Assembly: GCF_014843005.1 (NCBI RefSeq)
Contig: NZ_JACYXM010000001.1
Coordinates: forward strand, 372,001-436,000
DNA from: Rhodanobacter sp. DHG33
GTDB lineage: Bacteria > Pseudomonadota > Gammaproteobacteria > Xanthomonadales > Rhodanobacteraceae
DNA: 64,000 bases
Direction: 5' to 3'
In this document: one piece after another, positions 8,079 to 9,875 of the stretch
Layout: each line of letters begins with the position of its first letter
Numbering within the stretch: position 1 is the first letter of the stretch
Translations under genes and position numbers: made by a program
The notes under the pieces: model-generated
Told to the model about the DNA's origin: nothing
Seen by the model: only the letters and a program-made list of their open reading frames with translations
The model's database searches: none

Positions 8079-8302
8079 GGTCTCTCACCGAGTGTCGACA
8101 GATACCCGCGCTTTTTCCCCCTGTGCATCCAGGAGCAGCAAGTCACCGACTACGCTGCGGCGCGGATGTGGGAAAGGTAACCGCATGCGACGGAGCGTGC
8201 AAATCGCGCAGGTTCCCGTCGCAAGCCGTGACGTGCTTCGCGGCGCCGCGGGCAGCACCGTGCCAGGGGCAGCCAGGGCATTTCCGGGGCCCGGAAACGA
8301 AA

Positions 8303-8323
8303 CGTCCCGGCAATGCCGGGACG
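8303..8323 (-). terminator. hairpin downstream of metJ fusion
   Basis: CGTCCCGGC and GCCGGGACG form a 9-bp stem with a 3-nt loop. Read on the minus strand it is followed by TTTCGTTT, so it is a plausible terminator about 70 nt after the metJ-fusion stop. Confidence 0.6.
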
Positions 8324-8338
8324 AAATTTCGAATCGAT

Positions 8339-8364
8339 CTCCCCGCGCTGGGCACCGCGGGGAG
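8339..8364 (-). terminator. second hairpin downstream of metJ fusion
   Basis: CTCCCCGCG and CGCGGGGAG form a 9-bp stem with an 8-nt loop between the fusion's stop codon and the hairpin at 8303. Without a T-run it may instead protect the 3' end. Confidence 0.4.
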
Positions 8365-8394
8365 GCAAGTCGGTGATGCTTAGTTGTGTGACGC

Positions 8395-8660
8395 TTACTT
8401 CTTCGCGGTCTTGACGGCCTTCACCACCTTGGCGGCGGCAGGCTTCTTCGCAGCAGCTTTCTTGGCTGCCGGCTTCTTGGCAACCTTCTTAGCAGTGGAC
8501 TTCTTCGCAGCCGCCGGCTTCTTGGCGGCAGCCTTCTTCGCCGCCGGCTTCTTGGCGACCTTCTTCACGGCAGCCTTCTTGGCGACCGGCTTCTTAGCGG
8601 TGGACTTCTTGGCGGCCTTCTTGGCAGCCGGCTTCTTTGCAGCGGATTTCTTGGCAGTGG
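8395..8660 (-). repeat. low-complexity AAKK-encoding tandem repeats
   Basis: Imperfect direct repeats encoding variants of [15 protein letters not shown], seen on the plus strand as recurring ttcttggc-type units. They form the Lys/Ala-rich tail of the metJ fusion. Such repeats expand and contract easily, so length may vary between strains. Confidence 0.8.
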
Positions 8661-8898
8661 CCATGGTTCGTCTTAGCTCCTCATCGGTTGGCAGTGGTTG
8701 CCCAGTAAAAGCATGGAGGAACGCCTCGACCAACAAATCGCTGTTGGTGGCGTGCCTCAAATTTTTCACCTGACGCTCAGTGCGCAGGTCGGACAGCGTT
8801 CGCAACACATGGAGCGGAATCGAAACAGTGATCTTGCGTACCGCATTCGCTTTCTCACCGTGCTCCACATAAGGCGTTATGAATTTCGTTGTCGCCAT
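8395..8898 (-). CDS. metJ: MetJ methionine repressor fused to a histone H1-like Lys/Ala tail
   Basis: 167 residues in two clearly different parts. Residues 1-78 match MetJ, the SAM-dependent ribbon-helix-helix repressor of methionine genes. They include the ITPY.EHG N-terminus, the DNA-contacting strand [24 protein letters not shown], and the corepressor-pocket helix [13 protein letters not shown]. The last 20-25 residues of ordinary MetJ are missing. Residues 79-167 are repeats of [10 protein letters not shown] type, as in bacterial histone H1-like and AlgP-like DNA-binding tails. The reading frame is open without a break. Met79 could be an internal start. A GGGGAA ribosome site precedes the ATG. 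Expected role: SAM-responsive repression, probably with added non-specific DNA binding (inference). Confidence 0.88.
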
Positions 8899-8925
8899 GT
8901 TGCCGTTCCCCGTGAACTTGGGCGA

Positions 8926-8954
8926 AAGCTATTCCGTAAGAATTCACCTGTCAA
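8926..8954 (-). promoter_or_regulatory. candidate metJ-proximal promoter
   Basis: On the minus strand a consensus -35 TTGACA (8949-8954) and a weak -10 TAGCTT (8926-8931) are 17 nt apart, close to the metJ ATG. The poor -10 keeps confidence low. Confidence 0.4.
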
Positions 8955-9040
8955 TCGATTTTGTTTGGCGAATCAAACCCTTTTGCCGAGAGGCGACGGA
9001 CGCGCACGCGGAAGGAGCCATCAAACGGTTTTCTCCGACT

Positions 9041-9073
9041 TTTATATTTGGACGTCTATACATCCAAACGTTT
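9041..9073 (-). promoter_or_regulatory. three tandem met-box-like operators upstream of metJ
   Basis: Contiguous octamers GGACGTCT, ATACATCC and AAACGTTT (9050-9073) match the MetJ box AGACGTCT at 7, 5 and 6 of 8 positions. Contiguous 8-bp repeats are how MetJ dimers bind cooperatively. A TATAAA hexamer on the minus strand (9041-9046) abuts the array, so a bound repressor could block a metJ promoter. This suggests autoregulation; no other copy was noticed next to metB or cbs. Confidence 0.55.
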
Positions 9074-9380
9074 ATTTGCATATATTCATGTTCAACCACT
9101 GGAAATCACATGAAACAAGGGGTTTTTCGTTTATCGACGCCATGTCGCAACGAAAACGCACCGAATTCAATGCAACGCGACGCAATGCGCGCGAAGCGCC
9201 CGACCAGGGCTCGTCATGGAGATGAACGGGACGCGACCGGCCACTTCGCCGGATGACTGCCGCGGGGAGGTTTTCGGACCCGAACGGACGCCGAACGAGC
9301 GTCGTCGACGCCTCGACGCCACCCCGAGCGAGACCCGGGCAACCCCGAATCGATCGTCCAATTCGACCGATCGACCTGTG

Positions 9381-9398
9381 CAAATAGACGTCTATTTG
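9381..9398. promoter_or_regulatory. 18-bp perfect palindrome with consensus met box
   Basis: CAAATAGACGTCTATTTG is fully self-complementary and contains AGACGTCT, an exact MetJ box, at 9386-9393. The flanking octamers match poorly, so this is a single box with extended symmetry. It lies about 80 nt after the gcvH stop and about 310 bp upstream of the tandem boxes. Confidence 0.5.
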
Positions 9399-9479
9399 AA
9401 ATGGCGAAGCGACGCGACGGATGCCCCAAACGACGACGACCGCACTAGGCGGCCGTCGTCCAACACGCGGAACGGAAAC

Positions 9480-9875
9480 TCAGTGGTCTTCGTTCTCGAC
9501 CAGCTCCTCGTAGGCGCCGGCATCGAGCAACTGGTCCAGTTCGGCGCGATCGCTTATGCGCACGACATAGATCCAGCCTTCGCCCCAGGCATCCTCGTTG
9601 ATCGTCTCGGGCTTGTCGTTGAGCGTCTCGTTGACTTCGACCACCTCGCCGGACACCGGCGAATAGATGTCCGAGGCAGCTTTCACCGACTCGACCACCG
9701 CGGCGGCGCCGCCGGCCTTCACGCTCGAGCCGATTTCCGGCAGCTCGACGTAAACCAGGTCGCCGAGCTGGCCCTGGGCGTGGTCGGAGATGCCCACGCG
9801 CACCAGGCCGCCGTCTTCGATGCGCGCCCACTCGTGGGATTTGTTGAACTTCAGGTCGCCGGGGATCTCGCTCAT
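9480..9875 (-). CDS. gcvH: glycine cleavage system H protein
   Basis: A 131-residue lipoyl carrier that shuttles the aminomethyl group between the P, T and L proteins of glycine cleavage. The lipoylated lysine is Lys65 in the ESVKAASD motif, followed by the typical [12 protein letters not shown]. It follows gcvT on the same strand after about 70 nt, so the two are likely co-transcribed. gcvP is not in the window. Confidence 0.97.

Follow-up and report, generated by a model that had tools for sequence, protein, structure and literature searches.

MetJ of E. coli (PF01340, NF003622, structure 1cma) is the closest described relative of the protein examined here, and the two have in common the core, the DNA strand, most SAM-pocket residues and tandem AGACGTCT-type operators at methionine genes. 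They differ in that our protein ends in an H1-like stretch and not in the E. coli C-terminal region, that Glu takes the Arg42 position in this lineage, and that metX is also equipped with a SAM-I riboswitch. AlgP and PhaF of Pseudomonas, as described in an excerpt of PMC9239181, likewise combine an N-terminal part with a disordered Lys/Ala/Pro C-terminal domain of KPAA repeats; the KPAA stretches of AlgP bind DNA, and PhaF is thought to do so (PMC9239181, same excerpt). The present protein differs in having a sequence-specific repressor as its N-terminal part and a tail with its own probable start. One gene with two in-frame products through internal initiation in its last third has been described for SpaO/SpaO-short (PMC13059759, excerpt); in that system the short form acts together with the long form, whereas here it is predicted to be an independent DNA-binding protein that stands alone in relatives.

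Families of the order carry arbitrary labels in this study (f1, f2 and so on); f1 would correspond to the Rhodanobacteraceae, which include Rhodanobacter, Dyella, Luteibacter, Frateuria and Fulvimonas, and f2 to the Xanthomonas family. In the excerpts available of earlier work, MetJ was found in 0 of 4 Xanthomonadales genomes (PMC4239095), metJ is called "missing" in X. campestris 8004 (PMC6230763), and MetR/MetJ control is described as apparently conserved across many Gram-negatives, Xanthomonas among them (PMC7270179). The SAM-I riboswitch of the Xanthomonas met operon (PMC7270179, excerpt) has its likeness in f1, f2 and f3, where SAM-I also stands before metX. The f1 riboswitch differs in being preceded by a MetJ operator, which would place one gene under the control of two SAM sensors. 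Four "Histone H1" genes are given for X. campestris in an excerpt of PMC8578834. No report of a MetJ with an H1-like tail was found in the literature searched, judged mostly by titles and the openings of abstracts.

The window is the whole 64,000-nucleotide stretch of the Rhodanobacter sp. DHG33 genome (G000) that was analysed (Table 1). Comparison of its sequence with relatives makes it quite likely that one gene lies nested inside another at this locus, giving a MetJ-H1 fusion and a free H1-like protein from an internal ATG at 8664, and that f2 and f3 lost metJ and kept the leader.

Table 1. Features of the metJ-H1 locus in window coordinates
Feature	Position	Strand	Remarks
Terminator-like hairpin 3′ of the metJ-H1 stop codon	8303..8323	minus	Hairpins in the region no more numerous than in shuffles
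metJ-H1 open frame, full-length fusion product, 167 aa	8395..8898	minus	ORF, MetJ matches, kept across f1
Nested H1-like ORF (putative), 89 aa	8395..8664	minus	Internal ATG (Met79) at 8664-8662; free-standing counterpart in f2/f3
Frozen nucleotide element	8647..8712	minus	Last 16 MetJ codons and first H1-like codons; Shine-Dalgarno-like GAGGAG 12 nt ahead of the internal ATG
MetJ core, residues 1-78	8665..8898	minus	KITVSI beta strand and RHATNS turn; SAM-pocket residues other than at the E. coli Arg42 position (Glu41)
Promoter-like TTGACA-N17-TAGCTT of metJ-H1	8926..8954	minus	Such a site at about -57 in 68/68 full-length named loci; missed by consensus scan
metJ-upstream met boxes, a tandem of three imperfect 8-bp units	9050..9073	minus	
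Second met box, perfect 8 bp	9386..9393	no strand	Only 4/68 named loci have an exact box at about -490 to -500
gcvH	9480..9875	minus	Anchor for the f2/f3 H1-like gene

The MetJ core and its H1-like tail

A single 167-residue reading frame joins the MetJ core, residues 1-78, to an H1-like stretch, in agreement with the original prediction. The window protein matched Pfam MetJ PF01340 over residues 5-89 (119 bits, cut-off 25), the NCBIfam MetJ equivalog NF003622 over residues 4-92 (126 bits, cut-off 110) and the solved E. coli MetJ 1cma over residues 5-89 (E 2.9e-30). At the positions that we take to be the DNA contacts and SAM pocket of MetJ (E. coli numbering), R43, S54, E59, H63, F65 and L70 were kept in all 130 f1 loci read, and N53 was Asn in 128 and Ile in 2. 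The R42 position was R in 59 loci, H in 40, Y in 17, E in 13 and S in 1, and the window protein has Glu41 there. These counts come from a scan of 131 f1 loci with rows picked by the beta-strand motif, in which L143 was not found; in another set of 126 rows, the row filter itself forced N53 and F65. An AlphaFold model of the fusion (21 rows) was too poor for use (mean pLDDT 50.8, pTM 0.15), and Rfam gave four weak sub-threshold matches across 8300-9500, none accepted as real.

The tail (residues 79-167, 89 residues) is made of Lys/Ala/Pro repeats. Among 123 closed f1 loci it is Lys/Ala/Pro-rich, ranging from 42 to 311 residues (median 101) with about 40% K+R and a median of 0 acidic residues. 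The repeats had been called typical of H1-like/AlgP-like proteins, which holds for the composition and the near lack of acidic residues but not for the curated models: PF07382 (HC2) gave the window protein 23.4 bits, under its cut-off of 40, and NF038053 gave 25.5 bits, under its cut-off of 80, with an alignment from profile position 1. "H1-like" is therefore used here as a label of composition only. Judging by this composition and by AlgP and PhaF, the tail may serve in DNA bridging, compaction or DNA affinity. A search of 10 genomes for a second H1-like paralogue, with the tail as query, recovered only the window's own copy; it says little, since the query overlooked known H1-like genes elsewhere.

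The normal C-terminal end of MetJ had also been thought replaced by the tail. A tail of 89 residues is indeed present, but the E. coli C-terminus is rather absent in near relatives, and because the tail-less MetJ of f12 already stops at about the position where the f1 H1-like part starts, "replaced" needs correcting.

Distribution of the fusion

MetJ was found in 145 of the 398 genomes of the order (125 f1, 13 f9, 6 f12 and 1 f8), and no f1 genome is among the 20 listed genomes without a MetJ match (233 further genomes were unmatched). The frames in f1 are 137-399 residues long except in G382, with a contig-end match of 89 residues and a second partial match of 104. Outside f1 they measure 80-106 residues, except for G050 with 143, where the extra residues lie N-terminal to the core. 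In a class-wide sample MetJ occurred in 5 of 369 genomes, namely the window genome, one other f1 genome and three from other families (frames of 112-118 residues).

Within f1, 78 of 80 named relatives have an in-frame tail, and the other two end at a contig edge just past the core; every f1 locus readable beyond the junction has a tail. The 123 closed-frame loci count some genomes twice (named and unnamed); six rows open at a contig end were left out, none for a short tail, and L128 and L151 were read separately. A stop separating MetJ from the H1-like frame through a junction error had been named as what would overturn the fusion, and about 120 related loci run through the junction without one. 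An internal TGA does occur in the MetJ core of G392 (L143, f1), where the downstream H1-like part stays open. A 16S tree sets f1, f2, f3 and f6 apart from f8 and f9 with an inner order that is not fixed, and f12 is absent from the tree. In an f12 genome (L115, G021), a tail-less metJ lies about 1.4 kb from gcvH.

Conserved codons and a putative start at the junction

A start codon stands at the junction in 123/123 closed f1 loci (122 ATG, 1 GTG). Codon use was read in 44 diverse f1 loci, selected out of 122 at <92% identity. Over the 16 codons before Met79 (Ala63-Thr78), 12 are at least 86% uniform, many of them rare: Thr65 is ACT in 44/44 loci (background 0.042) and Arg76 is AGA in all 41 loci with Arg there (background 0.008). 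At the remaining four the commonest codon reaches 55-75%. A few earlier codons such as Ser53 AGC are uniform too, but these are common codons. In tail-less metJ of f12, f9 and f8 the corresponding residues have mixed codons (15 of the 20 loci found).

The region from -33 to +18 around the inner start is less structured than synonymous recodings, with a median z of +2.07 and 42/43 loci positive (L033 was dropped from the 44), compared to +0.45 and 38/43 in control windows; since the sequences are related, the p-value of this test is not to be taken literally. No conserved RNA fold was predicted over the junction element with alifold (43 rows). Anti-SD pairing in 62 loci had a median of -8.6 at the inner start versus -5.7 at the metJ start. 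The SD-to-ATG gap at the inner start is 12 nt in f1 (9 in some), longer than the 6-9 nt of f2, and the free-standing f3 genes have 11-12.

Apart from one exception, L138, the internal start and its ribosome-binding region are conserved beyond what the amino acids need. The junction also has the appearance of a conserved start region belonging to a separate H1-like gene, so a free H1-like part is probably produced as well. The earlier reading of the locus was right about the fusion but overlooked this probable inner start, together with the independent H1-like gene where MetJ is absent. Among the f1 loci read, only L138 (G238) shows GTG and ordinary codons at the junction, and it keeps the fusion.

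The H1-like gene near gcvH in f2 and f3

Downstream of gcvH and on the same strand, all 15 f2/f3 loci have an H1-like ORF free of acidic residues, two of which run off the locus end. The distance from gcvH is 377-451 bp in f3 and 733-1276 bp in f2. No H1-like gene was found within 1.5 kb on each side of gcvH in 9 loci of f4, f8, f9, f10 and f12. In the 12 f2 loci the interval between gcvH and the H1-like gene contains ORFs, but in no case is their codon make-up gene-like, and the f2/f3 loci contain no tRNA genes.

The leader of the f2/f3 H1-like gene resembles the f1 junction. A CTGGGC element lies 19-29 nt before GAGGAR in 12 of the 15 f2/f3 loci, farther away in two, and is missing in one. 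A pattern of leader plus start matched 66/76 f1, 55/78 f2 and 2/3 f3 genomes against 1/142 others, the reversed-pattern control giving 0; the single f4 match looks like chance. The window genome misses the strict pattern by one base, and 9 other f1 genomes fail to match it too. When a DNA profile of f1 metJ was run against 24 gcvH loci, the top six matches were f2/f3 H1 leaders, at the 3′ end of the profile, each of them weak (E 0.0098-0.049); 8 of the 15 f2/f3 leaders had no match, and the seventh match reached only E 1.7. The f2 locus L211 reads KPTDEELTM in frame. In our interpretation the f2/f3 leader is a remnant of metJ, because its peptide belongs to MetJ in families where no neighbouring H1-like gene was seen.

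All 10 closed free-standing f2 H1-like proteins (L209-L213, L215-L217, L220, L223) end in a Pro-rich, largely hydrophobic stretch, e.g. APVALPATPAPLI, a feature that most f1 tails lack. Upstream of the H1-like gene, a reading LGFAQ.. recurs in f2 loci L212, L216, L218, L220 and L221 with no gene-like ORF there; it is possibly a conserved promoter or leader.

Proposed model and alternatives

In the model that we favour, the outer frame would encode a SAM-dependent MetJ repressor permanently bearing the H1-like tail, since translation from the metJ start would meet no stop. The final 16 codons of MetJ would double as leader and ribosome-binding region of the inner in-frame H1-like gene, so that internal initiation at Met79 would give a free H1-like protein of about 89 residues from the same DNA. 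The tail would probably add sequence-independent DNA affinity. In f2 and f3, MetJ and the metX operator were probably lost and the H1-like gene survived, with the last ~50 nt of metJ as its leader. For the model as a whole, with one gene yielding a SAM-switchable tailed repressor and a free histone-like protein, and with the repressor lost in sister families where ~50 nt stay on as leader, we judge the case evenly balanced.

The junction could also be explained without a second product, Met79 being an ordinary residue, the tail giving extra non-specific affinity or bridging, and the frozen codons reflecting some other constraint. In the loci read, no break interrupts the frame from core to tail, which agrees with this, as do the DNA-binding KPAA stretches of AlgP-type proteins (PMC9239181, excerpt) and the retention of the fusion without the frozen element in G238. 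We consider it very unlikely, given that the frozen, often rare codons stop at the start codon and resemble the leaders of the free-standing f2/f3 genes, and that RNA structure around Met79 is low. It is somewhat unlikely that the free H1-like protein comes from a transcript of its own started inside metJ, with the frozen element mainly a promoter or 5′ leader. The position of the CTGGGC-type sequence before the SD in most f2/f3 loci would fit such a transcript, and since the f2 interval after gcvH holds no gene-like ORF, the H1-like gene may have its own promoter nearby. A simple scan of the window locus finds no sigma-70-like minus-strand promoter inside metJ, however, and the element sits directly on the SD and ATG and is unstructured. 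A separate transcript would be compatible with dual products.

The main alternative to metJ loss in f2 and f3 is the reverse history, in which an H1-like gene with its leader already stood 3′ of gcvH when f1 alone acquired metJ, in frame, in front of it. The H1-like gene lies 3′ of gcvH in f1, f2 and f3 with MetJ only in f1 of these, and the 16S tree does not settle the inner branching, both of which would suit a capture. We nevertheless hold it unlikely, as the leader resembles the codons for TGQ..PTDEEL, residues present also in the tail-less MetJ of f8, f9 and f12, and as the peptide of L211 is in frame. An assembly or sequencing artefact at the junction is practically impossible and was ruled out: nothing was found in its favour, and the same junction recurs in independently sequenced genomes of many genera.

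If the nested-gene model with loss of metJ is true, a metabolite-sensing repressor and a chromatin-like protein are joined in one gene, and the MetJ-H1 and the free H1-like protein could share one SAM control. It would also mean that a gene nested in frame can persist after its host is gone, with coding sequence of the host becoming a leader or regulatory element. Through the tailed MetJ, the SAM state of the cell may act on nucleoid structure.

Met boxes, promoters and the SAM-I riboswitch

MetJ-H1 would repress metX and itself through tandem met boxes, and possibly hom and aspartokinase. At metX, three tandem met boxes abut the TTGAC of the -35 (within 1-2 bases) in 15/15 f1 genomes and lie about 60 bp before the SAM-I riboswitch, scoring 16-21 of 24 matches with 0/200 shuffles reaching each score. 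They are absent in 14/14 f2/f3 genomes, where the best score is 11-12 and was reached by 106-190 of 200 shuffles. This set covers 29 of 30 genomes, G075 being excluded as no riboswitch-linked metX was found. Upstream of metJ, 84 of 117 loci have significant met-box arrays (≤5/100 shuffles), which lie mostly at -165 to -195, and the other 33 fail the box test, among them Luteibacter-like and several Dyella loci. By the score used, no met boxes were seen upstream of metJ in L110, L133 and L148 (Luteibacter-like) or in L083, L084, L092, L109, L129 and L142 (Dyella-like).

Candidate tandem boxes also precede hom, aspartokinase and a cysB-type/cysG pair, as read in the window genome only, where the genome-wide met-box count was no higher than the control. 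The operator case rests on the metX and metJ footprints, because the genome-wide pattern shows no excess. From these sequences, MetJ is probably still active as a repressor in f1. A consensus scan of 8250-9500 gave no minus-strand promoter. About 100 bp separate the metJ met boxes from the promoter-like hexamers downstream of them, unlike at metX, where the boxes touch the -35; the metJ spacing could reflect an additional promoter or regulation from a distance.

The SAM-I riboswitch was found in 31 of 36 genomes (16/16 f1, 11/12 f2, 3/3 f3, 0/3 f12 and 1/2 f9). The presence of MetJ in 125 f1 genomes, with SAM-I in all 16 tested, bears on the view that Xanthomonadales are without MetJ. At the metX locus of the window genome (L249, G000:C1:55496-55748), the MetJ operator stands directly before the SAM-I riboswitch.
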